From: Candidatus Hydrogenedentota bacterium
Lineage (GTDB): Bacteria > Hydrogenedentota > Hydrogenedentia > Hydrogenedentales > SLHB01
Direction: 5' to 3'
DNA length: 64,000 nt
NCBI GenBank assembly: GCA_029552745.1
Contig: JAKPDK010000182.1
Span: forward strand, 124,001-188,000
Shown here: positions 3,965 to 61,210 of the stretch, piece after piece
Position numbering within the stretch: the first letter of the stretch is position 1
Layout of the letters: every line of letters begins with the position of its first letter
Notes under the pieces: model-generated
What the model saw: only the letters and a program-made list of their open reading frames with translations
The model's database searches: none
Told to the model about the DNA's origin: nothing
Program-made: the position numbers and the translations under genes

Positions 3965-4339
3965 CTAACTAAGGTCGGTTTCGTCCGGAGTTTTAGGCTG
4001 GGAGAAACCTAAAGAACGTAAAAAACCGTCAATATTGATCTGGTCGGGGTCAACGCCTTGTTCCGGGTGGAAACGTAAAGGATTGCGGATGTAAATTCTC
4101 TGACAGGAGGGACAAAGGTCGAGTTCGAAGCTCTTGTAAACGCTTTCCTCGATTTCTTGTGGGTCTTTGTTTCGTAAACGCTCTATTAGTTCAAGAATTT
4201 CCTCCCGATGATCCCGTACGAGGTCCATGAGACTGACTTCCAGTTCATCATACGCTGCGCGGACCTCGATTTTCACCGTGTAGCGTAGATCTCCCTTGTG
4301 CATTTCTTTTCCGCAACCATCGCACCGGAAAGTCATCAT
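3965..4339 (-). CDS. Zinc-ribbon protein of unknown function
   Basis: About 124 residues from ATG 4339, chosen because GGAG lies nine bases upstream; an in-frame TTG at 4354 is the only longer alternative. Two CxxC pairs, CDGC near the N-terminus and CPSC in the last third, are placed to bind one zinc ion. Between them is a helical acidic segment (DLVRDHREEILELIERL). No enzymatic motif is visible. Terminator-type hairpin 4499-4528 separates it from the small-peptide operon on the same strand, so it is probably transcribed separately. Confidence 0.75.
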   Translation of the reverse strand: MMTFRCDGCGKEMHKGDLRYTVKIEVRAAYDELEVSLMDLVRDHREEILELIERLRNKDPQEIEESVYKSFELDLCPSCQRIYIRNPLRFHPEQGVDPDQINIDGFLRSLGFSQPKTPDETDLS

Positions 4340-4498
4340 CCTGGCTGTCTCCAAAATAGGAACGCATTAGCCAATTGGACTAGTATACCATGACTTCACG
4401 GGCATTTTCTGCTGTTATTTTCTGCTCACGAACATTCCCTATAACGGGACAATCATTACAACAGGACGACGTGTGTAAGCGATTGGCGCGTTGTAAAG

Positions 4499-4528
4499 AA
4501 AAAAGGCGGCTGAAGTTTCAGCCGCCTT
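4499..4528 (-). terminator. Rho-independent terminator of the small-peptide operon
   Basis: Read on the minus strand: a nearly perfect stem (AAGGCGGCTGAA paired with TTCAGCCGCCTT, bases 4503-4528) followed directly by six T's (4504-4499). It lies 16 bases after the stop codon of the last peptide gene (4545), so it most likely ends that operon's transcript. Confidence 0.9.
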
Positions 4529-4544
4529 CCGGAATTCACACGGC

Positions 4545-4706
4545 TTAGGATGCGCCGTTTTGTCCGCCTTTCCCCTTGTCGGCGGTAAGGTTCAAGATGA
4601 ATCCGAACACTTGGTCGAGCAGACCGGAGATATCTCCAGCGGTCAAACCCAAATCGTCTCCGTTGTCTTCGGCCTTTCTTAAGGTAATTCTTTTGACATG
4701 CTTCAT
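4545..4706 (-). CDS. Small peptide P1 of tandem four-gene family (53 aa)
   Basis: I recognise no named family. It begins MKHVKRITLRKA, the 12-residue block shared by all four tandem genes (consensus M-[KS]-H-[ILV]-x-[KR]-[VIL]-T). An acidic linker (EDNGDDLG), a hydrophobic amphipathic helix-like stretch (about residues 25-41, containing GLLDQVFGFILNL) and a Gly/Lys-rich tail (KGKGGQNGAS) follow. The helix and KGKG tail are also seen in P4, with about nine identities over 22 aligned positions. The start has AAAGGAG eight bases upstream. It is the last gene of the operon, followed by a terminator. The role is unknown; a precursor-peptide (leader plus variable core) or secreted signalling peptide are possibilities. 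Confidence 0.82.
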   Translation of the reverse strand: MKHVKRITLRKAEDNGDDLGLTAGDISGLLDQVFGFILNLTADKGKGGQNGAS

Positions 4707-4794
4707 ACTTTCTTCTCCTTTCTTTTCTCTTGTTGCAACGTTAGGACACCTTCTTGAAAATGCACCTTCTTAAAAACCTCGTCAAAGATGTCGA

Positions 4795-4902
4795 CTATTT
4801 TTTCAAAGGTAACATATCCGTAAGCTCATAACCGATATTCACAATTTCATCTTCAGATGGAATCTGTGCCTTTTTTACGGTAACTTTTTTCAAATGTTTC
4901 AT
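4795..4902 (-). CDS. Small peptide P2 of tandem family (35 aa, possibly frameshifted)
   Basis: It begins MKHLKKVTVKKA, the family block, preceded by AAAAGGAG ten bases upstream. In frame 0 it stops after 35 residues at TTG AAA AAA TAG. In the -1 frame, the sequence continues directly after the six A's as IVDIFDEVFKKVHFQEG and 14 more residues, ending in a TGA that overlaps the ATG of P1. The -1 extension resembles the amphipathic helix of P1 (ISGLLDQVFGFIL). So the intact gene may be 66 residues, with the break caused by slippage on the A-run, a real one-base deletion, or an assembly error. The 35-residue form is what the given sequence encodes. Confidence 0.72.
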   Translation of the reverse strand: MKHLKKVTVKKAQIPSEDEIVNIGYELTDMLPLKK

Positions 4903-4991
4903 CTTTCATTGTCTCCTTTTGCCCGTATGGCTTTAAAACCCGCGGCAACGCTCAAGTGATTCCCCGGGTTCTACTATTGTGAGGCGCCTGA

Positions 4992-5135
4992 TTAACTCAT
5001 GGAAGGCTGCTTCTTATCCATCAGCTCCAAGAACATTGCCGTGATTTCGCATTCCTGACAGGATGTACCTTGTACTTCTTCAAGCGGGAGTTCATAAACT
5101 GCCTTTTTCACCGTAACTTTATGAATATGACTCAT
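4992..5135 (-). CDS. Small peptide P3 of tandem family (47 aa, with CxxC)
   Basis: It begins MSHIHKVTVKKA, nearly identical to P2 over positions 5-12. An acidic middle part (VYELPLEEVQG), a CQEC pair at residues 26-29, and a short helix-like segment (EITAMFLELMDKK) follow. It is the only member with cysteines in the read frame. AAAGGAG stands 11 bases before the ATG. The gap to the next gene (P2) is 89 bases, close to the 83 and 88 bases at the other two junctions, suggesting origin by tandem duplication of a unit. Function unknown. Confidence 0.82.
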   Translation of the reverse strand: MSHIHKVTVKKAVYELPLEEVQGTSCQECEITAMFLELMDKKQPSMS

Positions 5136-5218
5136 TCTATTTATCTCTCCTTTCTGCGTCTATTTTTTGGATACTTACGTTATGGTACCTACAAATACCT
5201 GTTTGCAAAGTTTTGAGA

Positions 5219-5389
5219 TTATGTGGTCGTTCCGCTGGTGCTGTTCCCTTTTCCTTTCGCGGAAACCAGGTTGATATAAAAGGTTGTTAAAGTGGATAAA
5301 AGCGTGTTCATAGCTTGAAGGCGGACGGTGTCTTCGTCGTATTCATATTGCGCTAACTGAATGGCGGTCAATTTCTTGATGTGTGACAC
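5219..5389 (-). CDS. Small peptide P4 of tandem family (56 aa), GTG start
   Basis: First gene of the operon. The GTG start at 5389 is chosen because it aligns exactly with the initiator of the other three (SHIKKLT follows) and has GAGGAG about ten bases upstream. The rest has an acidic segment (YEYDEDT), a hydrophobic helix-like stretch (NTLLSTLTTFYINL) and a KGKG plus Ser/Thr/Gly tail (NSTSGTTT). The helix and KGKG align with P1, so P1 and P4 are the closest pair over full length. A TATAAT box lies 40 bases upstream. No processing or export gene is adjacent. Confidence 0.8.
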   Translation of the reverse strand: MSHIKKLTAIQLAQYEYDEDTVRLQAMNTLLSTLTTFYINLVSAKGKGNSTSGTTT

Positions 5390-5429
5390 GACACAAACGC
5401 TCCTCTTTCCTCGATCGGTCCTGCCTACT

Positions 5430-5458
5430 ATTATACACTTCTTGGCGAAAAAGTGTTA
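5430..5458 (-). promoter_or_regulatory. Promoter and possible operator of the small-peptide operon
   Basis: On the minus strand a perfect TATAAT (5435-5430) is placed for a start near 5423, about 34 bases before the GTG of P4. No good -35 is found at 17 bases (TAACAC). Instead an inverted repeat, ACACTT/AAGTGT (5435-5440 and 5451-5456), spans the spacer. A poor -35 with a palindrome over the spacer is common at activator- or repressor-controlled promoters; the regulator is unknown. Confidence 0.55.
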
Positions 5459-5581
5459 CAAGATGTGGTATCTTCGGCAGTTTTTCTCATGTTAGGTTGA
5501 GGGATTGAAGAGAGTATTTTCCATGAAGGTCATGAAGGGAAAGGCACCGACGCGAAGCGTCATAGGTAGGTTTGATCTTAT

Positions 5582-5612: not shown

Positions 5613-5723
5613 GGCTCCCCAAAGTGTTGTTCTTTTGTCATACCTTCTTACTTCCTCCGCATGCCGTGGGGGACACAGGGAGGGCTGAACCCTTCGCAGG
5701 GGATTGAAAACTGTCCCAGTGCT

Positions 5724-5870
5724 GTCATTGCGAGGAGCCCCGCAGGGGCGACGCGGCAATCCCCTTGGGTATCCGGAGATTACGCCGTTCCTTGTACCCA
5801 GTCCTGTTGCGCTGCGCGCTCGAGGGGATTGCTTCTTTGCTTTGGGCGATTGCTTCTCGCAATGGCAACC
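5724..5870. repeat. Dispersed ~140-bp inverted-end repeat, copy 1
   Basis: It begins GTCATTGCGAGGAGC and ends TCTCGCAATGGCAAC, an inverted match. Inside are GCAATCCCC near the left end and GGGGATTGC near the right, a second inverted pair. It codes for nothing convincing. It fills much of the 550-base gap between the peptide operon promoter and the TIGR02757 gene. The same element, better preserved, recurs at 18332, 24106, 43585, 45421 and 61430. Confidence 0.8.
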
Positions 5871-5939
5871 GGGCGTATAAGTCCTGGCTTACCTCCTCGA
5901 TGGAGTGCCAAATGTTTGTGATGTTATGCACAAGATAGA

Positions 5940-11453: not shown

Positions 11454-12584
11454 ATGAAGAAGAAACTGGGTTTCACGTTAATTGAGTTATTGGTTGTGAT
11501 CGCGATCATAGCCATACTCGCGGCAATTCTATTGCCGGCTTTGGCGCGGGCACGTGAGGCGGCACGGCGTGCCAGTTGCCAGAACAACCTGAAGCAGTGG
11601 GGTCTGATTTTCAAGATGTTTGCCAGTGAGAACAGAACGGGAAAGTTTCCCTCCGGCTCTAACATAGCGGTGTGGGTCGACCACGCCGCGTTGGGGGGCC
11701 CCACGTCGTGGTGGCAGTATTGGAATCACCTCAAGGGGGTGAACGCCGCGGAACTGTACCCTGAGTATTGGACAGATCCTGCGATTGCGGTGTGTCCTTC
11801 GGATACACGTGCCTCGTTGGAACGGCAGTTGGTATGGTTCGATCAAGCCGTATTGCCACGGTTCATTAATGAAACGGACTATGTAAATGAGATCAAAAAA
11901 ACCGCAGATGCGGTAGCAGCGGCGGGACAGCCGGAAGCAGGTAAAGTCTGCCTGAACATGAAGCTTTCTCATCCGATTTCGTACATCTACTGGCCCTTTG
12001 CCGTGTCCCGGACAGTCGAGATGGTTGCATTGGACGACGTGATTTGGTGGTGGCATTTTTGGGATCGCGTGAACGCGTCAGGAACCGCATGGTGGGCACC
12101 GCTTGATGGTACTGCTTACGGCTGTATCAATTACCGTGGATTACCGGTACCTGGCTGGAACGACACGGACCTCGAGTGGTCTATCCTTCAAAATGGCGCC
12201 CTTTACAATTGGGAGATGAATGGATGGATCTCTTCCCCGGATGGAAAGCCGTTGCCTAAGCAGGTGTACCGGCTTAAAGAGGGAATCGAACGGTTTTTCA
12301 TTACCGATATCAACAATCCGGCTGCGGGTTCCAAAGCTCAAAGCAATATCATCGTTATGTATGACGCCTTTGGGGGAGGTTACGGGCGCAATGCGGGCGA
12401 TCCGCTAACCTTAAACTTCAACCATATTCCCGGGGGATCGAACGTCCTGTATATGGACGGTCATGTCTCTTTTGTGAAGTACGGCCAAGCTGCACCGCTG
12501 GAATATGCAACTCAGGGTGAAACCGGCAGCAACATGTTGGACTTTGCCCCATTAGTACTGCCTATTATGGGTGGTTACGAATAA
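11454..12584 (+). CDS. Prepilin-like protein, H-X9-DG type (first of three)
   Basis: 376 residues. The start [15 protein letters not shown] is a type IV prepilin leader: cleavage after Gly7, Phe at mature +1 and Glu at +5, followed by a hydrophobic helix ending '[20 protein letters not shown]'. The C-terminus has [17 protein letters not shown], the H-X9-DG signature of this pseudopilin family (DUF1559-related), abundant in Lentisphaerae, Planctomycetes and related phyla. AGGAGG/AAGGAG precede the ATG. It is exported to the cell envelope; its function is unknown. It is a single-gene unit closed by a terminator. Near-identical N-termini occur at 27137 and 46769. Confidence 0.93.
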
Positions 12585-16061: not shown

Positions 16062-18092
16062 ATGACAGAAACCAAAACCGGACAAGCCAAACAAACAGTA
16101 TCCAAATCTTCAGCGCCCCGCATTCGCGTAGGAGTGACGTATTATCCGGAACATTGGGGAAAAGCACGCCTGGGCATTGACATTCCGTTGATGCGGGAAG
16201 CGGGCATTCAAATCGTGCGGATGGGTGAGTTTGCTTGGTCTCGTTTGGAGCCCTCTGAGGGGAGGTACGATTTCTCTTGGCTCGAAGAAGCTGTCAATGC
16301 CTTCGGACAAGCCGGCATTTCCGTTGTATTGGGAACACCTACCGCGGCACCACCGGCCTGGTTTCATCAGAAATACGATGTCTATCCGCGCGACGAATGG
16401 AAGAGACCGCTCGGGTTCGGCACGCGGCTGCAGCGCTGTTTGAACCACCCTGTGATGCGAGAATCCAGTCGGCGTATTACCGAAGCGATGGCGCGTCATT
16501 TTGGTCATAATCCCTTTGTGGAAGCCTGGCAAACCGACAACGAACTCACTCAAAATTACTGTTATTGTGATTACTGTGCCAAGGCGTTTCGAGAATGGCT
16601 CGCCGATAAATATGGTTCGCTTGACAATCTGAACCGAGCGTGGGGCACCGTGTTTTGGAGTCAGGAATATTCAGACTGGGAGCAAATCCCCTTGCCCTGG
16701 TTCGCCAAGTGCGGTATGGCACATAACCCATCCCTGCAATTGGACTATAGAAGGTTCCAGTCCGACGCTACGGTGACGTTTCAACAAGAGCAAGTAAATA
16801 TTCTGCGTTGTCTTTGCCCAGGCCAAAAAATCACACACAACATCATGGGACTTAATGATTCCATGGATTATTTTGCTTTGGCGGCGGATTGGGATTTTGC
16901 CGCTTGGGACAACTACCCCATCACGCCGTGGGGGGAAAACGGCATGCGGGTTCCCTTAGGGCATGACGTTACCCGGGGGATGAAGAATCGCGCTTTTTGG
17001 ATCATGGAAGAACAAGCGGGAATCACCGGCTGGGAAATGATGGGACCCCAGACGGAACCAGGGCAAATACGCGCATGGGCGTGGCAAGCCGTCTCGCATG
17101 GAGCTGAGACAATTCTGTTTTTCCGTTGGCGGTCTTGTCTTTACGGCACGGAACAATATTGGCATGGTATTTTGAATCACGACGGGGTCCCCCGACGCCA
17201 TTTCCAGGAAGTGAAACAGTTGGCAAAAGAATTTGGGGAATTGTCGCCTTTCTTGTCAGGGGCTGAGGTTCGCTCTGACGTCGCGATCGTACACGACGCA
17301 GACCAACACTACGGGTACCATATTCAGCCGCAGGTGCGGGGCATGGGGCTTTGGGACCAAATACTTCGGTTTTATACGCCGTTGTGGAGGTGGGGTGTCA
17401 ATGTCGACCTTGTGTCACCGGCAGCGGATTTCTCGCCGTATAGACTTGTCATTCTGCCGGGTTGGTACATTTTGAGTGATGAGTTTGCTGATAAGGTTCG
17501 TCAATACGTGAGCCGTGGCGGAACTGTCGTCATGAATCCCCGCACCGGCGTCAAAAATATTGACAACGTTTGTGTCCAAATCCCGTTGCCGGGTTTATTA
17601 AGAGATGTAGCGGGTATCACCGTAGCTGAATATAGCCCAATGGCAGAAAAGGTTGGTTCTGTGCAATTCCGAGACCAAAATACAGCAAGTATTTCGGTTT
17701 GGGCAGACCAACTCCTTCTGGATACCGCTGAGCCTTTCGCGTGGTATCGGGACTCTATCTATGCTGGCAAACCCGCCGTGACATGCAACGATTTTGGGAA
17801 AGGCAAAGCGTGGTATTGCGGCACTTTCGGTGACGAAGGCTTTTATCATATTTTTCTCAAGCAGATATTGAACGAATGCGGCATCTCCTCTTGGGATGGA
17901 TTGCCCAAGGGCACCAGTGTCAGAACCCTATATCGCGAAGGGAAAAGATACACCATTTTGGTGAATCTTGAAGGACAGGAAAAACAACTTTCTCTCCCGG
18001 GGGATTGGAAAATGCTTTTGGGTGAGCAGGGACTGAACACACTGACGCTGAAGGCGTATGGCATTGCTGTTCTTGAGAGTGATCGTAGCTAG
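16062..18092 (+). CDS. GH42 beta-galactosidase-type glycosidase
   Basis: 676 residues. 'VGVTYYPEHW' is the family's N-terminal signature; Glu161 in 'WQTDNEL' is the acid/base (Asn-Glu pair) and Glu near 315 in 'FWIMEEQAG' fits the nucleophile region. Cysteines in 'YCYCDYCAKAF' fit the zinc cluster of GH42. Domains: TIM barrel to ~390, a trimerisation/flavodoxin-like domain ('VSPAADFSPYRLVILPGWY'), and a small C-terminal beta domain. There is no signal peptide, so it is cytoplasmic. It hydrolyses terminal beta-galactosides from imported oligosaccharides. It is last in the rbsK run. Confidence 0.93.
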   Translation: MTETKTGQAKQTVSKSSAPRIRVGVTYYPEHWGKARLGIDIPLMREAGIQIVRMGEFAWSRLEPSEGRYDFSWLEEAVNAFGQAGISVVLGTPTAAPPAWFHQKYDVYPRDEWKRPLGFGTRLQRCLNHPVMRESSRRITEAMARHFGHNPFVEAWQTDNELTQNYCYCDYCAKAFREWLADKYGSLDNLNRAWGTVFWSQEYSDWEQIPLPWFAKCGMAHNPSLQLDYRRFQSDATVTFQQEQVNILRCLCPGQKITHNIMGLNDSMDYFALAADWDFAAWDNYPITPWGENGMRVPLGHDVTRGMKNRAFWIMEEQAGITGWEMMGPQTEPGQIRAWAWQAVSHGAETILFFRWRSCLYGTEQYWHGILNHDGVPRRHFQEVKQLAKEFGELSPFLSGAEVRSDVAIVHDADQHYGYHIQPQVRGMGLWDQILRFYTPLWRWGVNVDLVSPAADFSPYRLVILPGWYILSDEFADKVRQYVSRGGTVVMNPRTGVKNIDNVCVQIPLPGLLRDVAGITVAEYSPMAEKVGSVQFRDQNTASISVWADQLLLDTAEPFAWYRDSIYAGKPAVTCNDFGKGKAWYCGTFGDEGFYHIFLKQILNECGISSWDGLPKGTSVRTLYREGKRYTILVNLEGQEKQLSLPGDWKMLLGEQGLNTLTLKAYGIAVLESDRS

Positions 18093-43859: not shown

Positions 43860-44963
43860 TTATACGTACCAGCCATATGAATGTGCTGTTTGGTACATGG
43901 CAATAACATTTTCGGTGGGACTATTGTCTTGGAGTGCGTGAGTGGGAGCAAAGGCGTAGCCGCCACCGGGCATCATGACATCTAGAACATGTTTACAATC
44001 GGCGACGACGTCATCAACTGTGCCGAATGAAACGGGTCCAGCGGTGCTAATGCACCCGTGGAACGACAATCTGCCGCCAAATGTGGCTTTCAAATACTCC
44101 GGAGACATGTTAGCGGCTTCCGGTTGAAGCGTGTCCACGGCGTCTATACCCATCTCGATAAAATCTTCATATGCCCAGCTACTCGACCCGCAGGTGTGGA
44201 TCATGACAGGCAAACCGAAAGACTTTGCCATGTCCACCACTCGTTGGTGCCGGGGTCTTATCATGCGGCGATACATTTCGAGGCTGATGAGCGGCGCATG
44301 TTGGGTGCCGAGGTCTTCTCCCATCCACACGAAGTCAATACGCCCCTTTGCGGCCTCGATGGTACGACGTTTTACTTCCAGTAAAATGTCCAGACGTCGA
44401 TCTACGTAGAGCTGCCACGCGGGGTTTTCGGTGATGATGTCCAACATGACTTGCTCCATGTTTCGAATCATGCCGGAACTGTTGATAATATCTCCCAGGC
44501 CAGGGCCCCCGACGTACAGTGCGTACGGCTCAAACGCTTTGCATGCGGCATCAACCACGCTGTAATCGAAATGGTCAGGATTGGGCATGGGCCAGGCGGC
44601 GATTTCTTCTTCCGTGGCGTCGCGCAGTGGAAAATCACAAAAGTCTTCATAAGCGCCGGTGCCATGTTCCACGTGGCGTGTCCGTATGCCAAATTGCGGA
44701 CACACATTCCGTCCCGGTACTTCAGGATGCAGCCGAGGTCCCACGTAGGGGACTCCGACTCCGCGAAAGTCCACGCCCAGAGCTTGCAGGAGGCCTTCAT
44801 GATCGTTTTGGGAAAGTCCCAGCGCCTTTTTCAATCGGGCGTCAATGCCTGGATTGGCAGAATAGTTGATGGGGACCCTATCCGGCTCCGAACGCGCGAA
44901 AAAAGCTAAAACACGTTCTCTCGGGGTCATTTTGCCTGGACGGACAGATAGCACGGAAGACAT
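43860..44963 (-). CDS. Uroporphyrinogen decarboxylase/MtaA-like methyltransferase, HTC variant
   Basis: 367 residues. 'TPRERVLAFFARSEPDRVPINYS' is the superfamily's N-terminal sequence. 'LPVMIHTCGSSSWAYEDFIEMGIDAVDTLQPEAANM' contains His-Thr-Cys, the MtaA/MtbA zinc-binding H-x-C, followed by the conserved 'L.P....M'. 'LSFHGCISTAGPVSFGT' is the next barrel strand with a further Cys. This is the paralog most like methylcobamide:CoM-type methyltransferases; the corrinoid partner is not in the window. GGGAGG lies six bases before ATG 44963. Confidence 0.85.
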   Translation of the reverse strand: MSSVLSVRPGKMTPRERVLAFFARSEPDRVPINYSANPGIDARLKKALGLSQNDHEGLLQALGVDFRGVGVPYVGPRLHPEVPGRNVCPQFGIRTRHVEHGTGAYEDFCDFPLRDATEEEIAAWPMPNPDHFDYSVVDAACKAFEPYALYVGGPGLGDIINSSGMIRNMEQVMLDIITENPAWQLYVDRRLDILLEVKRRTIEAAKGRIDFVWMGEDLGTQHAPLISLEMYRRMIRPRHQRVVDMAKSFGLPVMIHTCGSSSWAYEDFIEMGIDAVDTLQPEAANMSPEYLKATFGGRLSFHGCISTAGPVSFGTVDDVVADCKHVLDVMMPGGGYAFAPTHALQDNSPTENVIAMYQTAHSYGWYV

Positions 44964-45140
44964 GTATTCCTCCCGGTTCGGTTTGGTAATTTTCTAACAA
45001 CATTTGCCGCGCGGCCTTCAATTGGAATGTGCGGCAATTCGTTATCATACCTGATTTGGAAAGGGAAACGCCATCGTGCGGTGTCAAGCAATTTGGAAAA
45101 CATCTTTGAAAGGGATTCATCCTGAACATGGGCGCAGTAG

Positions 45141-60186: not shown

Positions 60187-61210
60187 CGCGTGGACCTTCC
60201 GACGGCGTGACCGTCACCCTTTCACCCATTCGCTCGGCGACATTGACGGGTAAAAGCATGCGCGCCAACAATTGCGTGTCAACCTTGCGACGACGTTGGA
60301 TTCGAACTCTCTCTCGGCAAGCGTGAGGCAAGGCAGCCAGTGTTTTTCCCAAAGTCTCTGCAACCTTTTTCAGCGCATACAAAAACCCCTTGGATGACCG
60401 CGCCACAGTAAAGACTCTTCCAATTTGATGCCGATGTTCCCGTAAAATCGCTCCACCATGCCGAAACAACAGAGCCTTGGGCATATTCTTGACAACGAGC
60501 AAACAGTGGTTGCGGCAACATTGCTGCGCCCGCCACACATGTCTCCCTTCCAGACTCGCCGAGCCCACATGATAGGACAACGCATCCGGAACGATCACCG
60601 CACGGAAACCCGCAAGCCGCGCACGAAACGACAGGTCGGCGTCCTCAAAATAAGCCCCGAATACTTCATCAAACAAGCCTATTTCCTCAAACAAATCCGC
60701 ACGATACAATGCCGCACCTGCCGACACGCCAAATGCCTCTGACGTGAGCCTGAACTCTTTTCGTAATACCCCATAGCCTATTGATACAGGCCTACCATTT
60801 TGCAACATGGCATCACCGGCACAAAAAACGGTATCCGGTTTTTCTCGAAAGAGAACATACGGGGCAAACATGGCCGCCGAGTCATCGCAGCGCCGCGCCG
60901 CACTCACCAAATGTTCCACACAGTTTGGCGCCAGCACCATGTCGTTATTCAAGAGAAAAATCAGCGGAGAGGAAGCCGTCTGGATACCGGCATTTACCGC
61001 AGACGCAAACCCCCGATTCGCGCTCATCTTCACTACTAATACGTCAGGCGCGTTCTGAGCCAGCCATTGACACGTGTCATCGGTCGAACCATCATCCACG
61101 ACGATCACCTGATAATCACGAAAAGTCTGCGCTTGAATACTGGCAAGACACGCCATCAGGAGTTCCCGATGGTTCCATGTCGGAATAACGATAGCAACCT
61201 TATGCGTCAC
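60179..61210 (-). CDS. GT2-family glycosyltransferase, first gene of surface-glycan cluster
   Basis: 343 residues, GTG start. 'VAIVIPTWNHRELLMACLASIQAQTFRDYQVIVVDDGSTDDT' is the canonical GT2 nucleotide-binding start, 'FLLNNDMVLAPN' the DxD equivalent, 'GAALYRADLFEEIGLFDEVFGAYFEDADLSFRARLAGFR' the ED motif with acceptor loop. A C-terminal helical part follows. It begins the operon of five glycan genes. Confidence 0.94.
   Translation of the reverse strand: MTHKVAIVIPTWNHRELLMACLASIQAQTFRDYQVIVVDDGSTDDTCQWLAQNAPDVLVVKMSANRGFASAVNAGIQTASSPLIFLLNNDMVLAPNCVEHLVSAARRCDDSAAMFAPYVLFREKPDTVFCAGDAMLQNGRPVSIGYGVLRKEFRLTSEAFGVSAGAALYRADLFEEIGLFDEVFGAYFEDADLSFRARLAGFRAVIVPDALSYHVGSASLEGRHVWRAQQCCRNHCLLVVKNMPKALLFRHGGAILREHRHQIGRVFTVARSSKGFLYALKKVAETLGKTLAALPHACRERVRIQRRRKVDTQLLARMLLPVNVAERMGERVTVTPSEGPRDA

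Follow-up and report, generated by a model that had tools for sequence, protein, structure and literature searches.

Four short genes lie in tandem on the minus strand of the window, by which we mean the whole 64,000-nt stretch analysed here, and no enzyme gene adjoins them. To what kind of system do such peptides belong, and where is the rest of it? We think it reasonably probable that the four peptides, P1 to P4, are an unlinked 'satellite' precursor set of a RiPP-like, perhaps lysine-acylating system conserved through Candidatus Hydrogenedentota. The features of the locus are the following:

5430..5459, minus strand: promoter-like GTAACA-18-TATAAT, a consensus match, 5' of P1
5219..5389, minus strand: P1, 56 aa, GTG start, MSHIKKLTAIQLAQ... 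TTFYINLVSAKGKGNSTSGTTT; leader, hydrophobic stretch and KGKG
4992..5135, minus strand: P2, 47 aa, MSHIHKVTVKKAVYELPLEEVQGTSCQECEITAMFLELMDKKQPSMS
4795..4902, minus strand: P3, 35 aa, MKHLKKVTVKKAQIPSEDEIVNIGYELTDMLPLKK
4545..4706, minus strand: P4, 53 aa, MKHVKRITLRKAEDNGDDLGLTAGDISGLLDQVFGFILNLTADKGKGGQNGAS; subtype B (LDxVFGFxLxL...KGK)
4671..4706 in P4, 4867-4902 in P3 and 5100-5135 in P2, minus strand: 36-nt leader-coding repeat
4501..4530, minus strand: intrinsic-terminator-like hairpin with a 13-bp stem, 3' of P4

An ORF check returned the four frames exactly as the initial annotation had described them, spanning 4545-5389 with lengths of 56, 47, 35 and 53 codons and gaps of 83, 89 and 88 bp. 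All frames and leaders are intact, and a purine-rich site lies 5' of each gene. The shared N-terminal block claimed earlier was borne out as well: the leader M-[KS]-H-[ILV]-x-[KR]-[ILV]-T common to P1-P4 has four matches in the 64-kb window, against none per window in 40 mononucleotide shuffles. The 36-nt leader-coding repeat, 78% identical and present in three of the four genes, supports the earlier suggestion of duplication. The proposed promoter and terminator both exist as sites, and the hairpin contains a perfect 12-nt inverted repeat (4503-4514/4517-4528), but neither kind of site is more numerous than in shuffles of the region. An Rfam search of the region retrieved nothing at the curated threshold, the best match (E=0.046) falling on the terminator-like stretch. 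The peptides received no known-family name from Pfam or NCBIfam searches, with no family above cut-off; in Pfam, P1-P4 gave a single sub-threshold match, to an unrelated family. Directly 3' of the operon (3965-4354, minus strand), a 129-aa protein with CxxC pairs likewise matches no Pfam family above cut-off.

The window belongs to a Candidatus Hydrogenedentota MAG of 4.36 Mb that is 99.7% complete. Searching this genome with P4 and then with a profile retrieved eight peptides in three places, namely the window contig (C27), contig C109 (three in a row) and contig C23 (one). P1, P2 and P3 match the family profile at E=1.5e-11, 1.7e-8 and 3.3e-8, respectively, each being itself among the profile sequences. 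The three C109 peptides head a six-gene cassette encoding two acetyltransferase-like proteins (GNAT1 and GNAT2), a CPBP protease, an ABC ATPase, an ABC permease and a large protein that we call the hub, with about 500 bp between the last full-length peptide and the start of the enzyme genes. There is no physical link between this cassette and the window operon. The initial annotation had stated that nothing typical of a RiPP cluster is adjacent to the four genes; this is true at the window locus, but the machinery is present on C109 of the same genome, and no maturation genes are seen near the operon because they lie elsewhere.

Three cassette products pass their Pfam cut-offs: GNAT2 (Acetyltransf_3, E=2e-18), the Rce1-like CPBP protease (E=1.4e-8), in which the catalytic EExxxR and histidines are conserved, and the ABC ATPase (E=2.1e-28). 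GNAT1 is matched weakly in the window's genome (E=0.0067) and passes the cut-off in a relative. The permease has no Pfam match in the window's genome; its ortholog in G005, a genome of the same family, matches ABC-2 below cut-off (E=3.8e-6). The cassette holds, in a fixed order, genes for a putative leader protease (CPBP) and a putative exporter made up of the ABC ATPase and the ABC-2-like permease. The full set, peptides-GNAT-GNAT-CPBP-ABC-ABC-hub, was found at 33 of the 60 hub loci in near-identical order with few small variations, and most of the other loci show the same order cut by contig ends. In most cassettes, several peptide subtypes follow one another, the last having the form RADAFxDFxNxxxRAWxDFxxxKKNE. 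The idea of leader-plus-core precursors, raised on the window alone, gains substance from these 33 loci, where same-leader relatives stand directly 5' of a maturase-like RRE/SPASM/GNAT protein, CPBP protease and ABC exporter machinery.

Some cassettes have further features. Between the C109 array and GNAT1, there is a 13-codon leader-only frame, MKHIKSCTLPRPG (L007:11092-11133, plus strand), with a purine-rich site 5' of it; this frame is absent from every other cassette examined. At 11 loci spanning several families (L046, L049, L052, L054, L134, L156, L157, L161, L166, L173 and L190), gltB-gltD, which encode glutamate synthase, precede the array by 140-505 bp; in L138 and L167 the distance is about 2 kb. 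The vicinity of gltB-gltD is possibly the ancestral position of the array.

The hub has 638 aa, arranged as RRE, radical-SAM-like barrel, SPASM and GNAT. In the PDB, its profile best matched CteB, a SCIFF radical SAM/SPASM maturase, at E=5e-44 over profile positions 4-423, N-terminal RRE included, while positions 511-623 matched RimL-type acetyltransferases. The AlphaFold model (pLDDT 89, pTM 0.72) begins with a bbb-aaa fold as in RREs, followed by the barrel, SPASM and GNAT regions, and its best fold match in the PDB is CteB (E=2e-18). The hub shares the layout of CteB/SCIFF-type maturases of ranthipeptides and sactipeptides. However, it departs from them in several respects. The radical-SAM motif CxxxCxxC occurs in none of the 47 hub homologs, and the loop expected to carry it is variable and modelled with low confidence. 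A GNAT domain is fused to the C-terminus. Cysteines are invariant at four SPASM positions (392, 395, 401 and 424) and, as a C-x2-C, on the RRE strand (25 and 28). The substrates, in turn, mostly lack cysteine (173 of 198 cores). Judged by motif, the hub is a pseudo-radical-SAM protein, and its RRE-like domain is a candidate leader-binding domain of the maturation machinery. Neither Pfam nor NCBIfam searches named the whole hub as a known family.

Because one fixed operon unites precursors of the leader-core type with an RRE, a membrane protease and an exporter, leader-guided processing and export is the best reading of the system, and one in which we have good confidence.

Homologs in related genomes, named as a check in the initial annotation, are widespread. 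The peptide profile detected family members in 61 of the 68 Hydrogenedentota genomes searched and the hub profile retrieved 62, mostly as a single copy per genome. Four genomes, all of one family, have neither. Presence of the two is correlated (Fisher p=6e-4, related genomes not being independent). Two genomes have the peptide and no hub: one carries its peptide after gltBD, close to the end of a contig, and the other has a completeness of 60%. When 318 genomes from outside the phylum were searched, three hub matches appeared, all limited to the generic SPASM region and none full-length, and the peptide profile had no match at E<=1e-4; this search also serves as a control for false positives from so short a profile. 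Short open frames abound in any window, a point in favour of P1-P4 being chance ORFs. With no leader match per shuffled window and a family present throughout the phylum and absent from those 318 genomes, this explanation has a negligible probability and is already refuted by the homologs. Carriage on plasmids was also rejected, since the matches obtained were all of a generic radical-SAM type and fell short of 80% coverage of the hub.

The family comprises 198 unique peptides with a common leader and subtype-specific cores. Leader position 3 is histidine in at least 90% of a 36-peptide alignment. Codon substitution, a second check proposed with the initial annotation, is strongly purifying and not random-like: dN/dS is 0.02-0.31 in 35 pairs of related family peptides, which do not include P1-P4, as their genus is represented by one genome and no relatives are close enough. 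The description of a conserved N-terminus followed by a variable remainder was half right. Within a subtype, cores are conserved rather than hypervariable, being as constrained as leaders (pN/pS of 0.19 and 0.21, respectively, in family pairs).

Lysine is near-invariant in the cores. When the core is taken as the residues after residue 15, lysine is absent from a single one of the 198 unique cores, against a mean of 40 in shuffled cores (minimum 25 in 1000 trials). The result holds when peptides are chosen by leader and ribosome site only (1/178 lysine-free), and none of six other residues tested shows a lysine-like constraint. In most cores, the first lysine is found where the most hydrophobic 15-mer ends or a little further on; a substantial minority have it elsewhere.

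Acylation of lysine or ornithine side chains in RiPPs by GNATs has precedents (PMC9505594, PMC13060382). GNAT1, GNAT2 and the hub GNAT domain align to one another, and GNAT2 is extremely conserved. None of the three, however, has a conserved P-loop [Q/R]xxGx[G/A], the motif being either missing or variable. This speaks against simple acetylation and leaves the acyl donor, or activity at all, uncertain. The donor could be something other than acetyl-CoA, or at least one GNAT domain could be structural. In the RiPP acylase NpuN, the loop is clearly kept in one of two GNAT domains (PMC13060382). Selidamides and nostolysamides resemble the present system in having GNAT enzymes, leader-tagged precursors and a conserved side-chain amine in the core (PMC9505594, PMC13060382). 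Here, in contrast, there is no recognisable Nif11/NHLP leader (P1-P4 in Pfam; four peptides scanned in NCBIfam), the GNATs are RimL/SpeG-like single domains lacking the P-loop rather than tandem GNATs, and the cassette has no lanthionine synthetase. Lysine acylation is our best guess for the chemistry, a tentative one to which we give slightly less than even weight.

Several of these observations would also agree with leader-directed export without modification. The SPASM protein and the GNATs would then be leader-reading chaperone pseudoenzymes, and unmodified hydrophobic peptides would build a multi-subunit envelope structure. The radical-SAM cluster motif has been lost in the hub, the GNAT P-loops are not conserved, cassettes encode ordered distinct peptides that end with the conserved RADAF...KKNE subtype, the system is near-universal in the phylum and its cores are under purifying selection. 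We nevertheless regard this explanation as unlikely, although it is the likeliest of the alternatives. Three separate GNAT domains are retained, GNAT2 almost without change, and the SPASM cysteines are invariant. The constraint on lysine is hard to explain if the residue is not used, but lysine could mark a membrane boundary.

As to the window operon itself, extra family peptides are found far from the cassette in many genomes. Subtype B (LDRVFGFVLELV..KGK), to which P4 belongs, stands alone at seven loci of other genomes, so unlinked members are maintained elsewhere. A core-only (leaderless) profile of subtype B, built without P4, gave E=1.1e-8 for P4 and a weak match to P1 (E=0.001); the core ranked after them scored 0.12. 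No relatives of the P2 and P3 cores were found by core-only profile. Taken with the isolation of the operon from any enzymes and the position of P1-P4 outside the selection measurement, the latter result fits a decayed or independent relic, in which the leader persists by descent and is no longer handled by the cassette. This is improbable in our judgement, considering the four intact frames, with their leaders and upstream purine-rich sites, and the persistence of P4-like peptides on their own. On contig C23 (L006:9840-11915, minus strand), the genes after the solitary family peptide encode a 126-aa PqqD-like protein (Pfam E=2.6e-7), a permease of the FtsX type and an ATPase resembling LolD, an arrangement partly syntenic in G005. 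The PqqD-like protein was rejected as a general component, its relatives occurring in 7 of 68 genomes and having a family peptide nearby in two.

The prochlorosins provide a precedent: their common-leader precursors share one enzyme, and some lie beside it whereas others are dispersed singly in the genome (PMC10783134). Prochlorosins differ from the present family, whose leader is short (about 12-15 residues), whose cores are conserved by subtype rather than hypervariable and whose cassette has no LanM. Given this precedent and the shared leader, the cassette may act on P1-P4 in trans.

Peptide weapons are usually patchy and fast-evolving. The short peptides described here are hydrophobic and carry a basic residue close to the end; they could be antimicrobial or cannibalism-type peptides of the sporulation-killing-factor (skf) kind, the CPBP protease and ABC proteins providing processing, export and immunity. 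The skf cluster does contain comparable parts: a small precursor, an RRE-bearing radical-SAM maturase, a putative protease and an ABC pair (PMC8172795). In contrast to skf, the Hydrogenedentota loci each encode several distinct precursors, have three GNAT domains and lack a radical-SAM motif, and they are nearly phylum-wide. A system with constrained cores that nearly all members of the phylum retain, most of them in one copy, is not what would be expected of a weapon, and no dedicated immunity gene was seen. We consider this role about as doubtful as that of a relic.

Returning to leader-guided maturation of an unlinked precursor set, the steps could be as follows. The leader would dock as a strand on the RRE of the hub, in trans in the case of the window operon. 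The hub and the two stand-alone GNATs would transfer an acyl-type group to the core lysine, and the CPBP protease would remove the leader at the membrane. The ABC-2 transporter would then deliver a set of several different hydrophobic peptides, which would work jointly, either within the envelope or outside it. An envelope role is suggested by the hydrophobicity of the cores and by retention in nearly all genomes of the phylum.

The system probably works like a RiPP pathway, with parts common to skf and CteB-type systems (PMC8172795). The features that define radical-SAM families are lacking (no CxxxCxxC, and cores mostly without cysteine), as are the leader and P-loop of selidamides. It stands at about even chances that we are dealing with a new leader-guided class ancestral to the phylum, in which a former radical-SAM maturase, now GNAT-fused, would be a leader-reading scaffold without radical chemistry that serves an ordered peptide set as well as unlinked satellites. 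We found no description of the peptide/hub system in the open-access literature, a scope outside which most subscription journals fall.

RiPP systems are mostly patchy accessory clusters. This one is retained across a phylum, generally in one copy per genome, and its cores are constrained, which points to a role in basic cell biology rather than warfare. The hub is a natural case of a radical-SAM/SPASM-type protein that has lost the cluster motif and is still conserved, which makes a scaffold role of RRE and SPASM testable. Orphan small-peptide operons such as this one can be assigned by their leader to machinery elsewhere in the genome.

Two further features of the window are recorded here. 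A 376-aa protein with a prepilin-type N-terminus is encoded at 11454-12584 (plus strand). An interspersed repeat of about 150-210 bp, 72-77% identical, occurs at 5720-5930, 17719-17920, 44862-45013 and 60877-61023 of the window and at L007:9738-9909; copies stand upstream of both peptide arrays in the window's genome.
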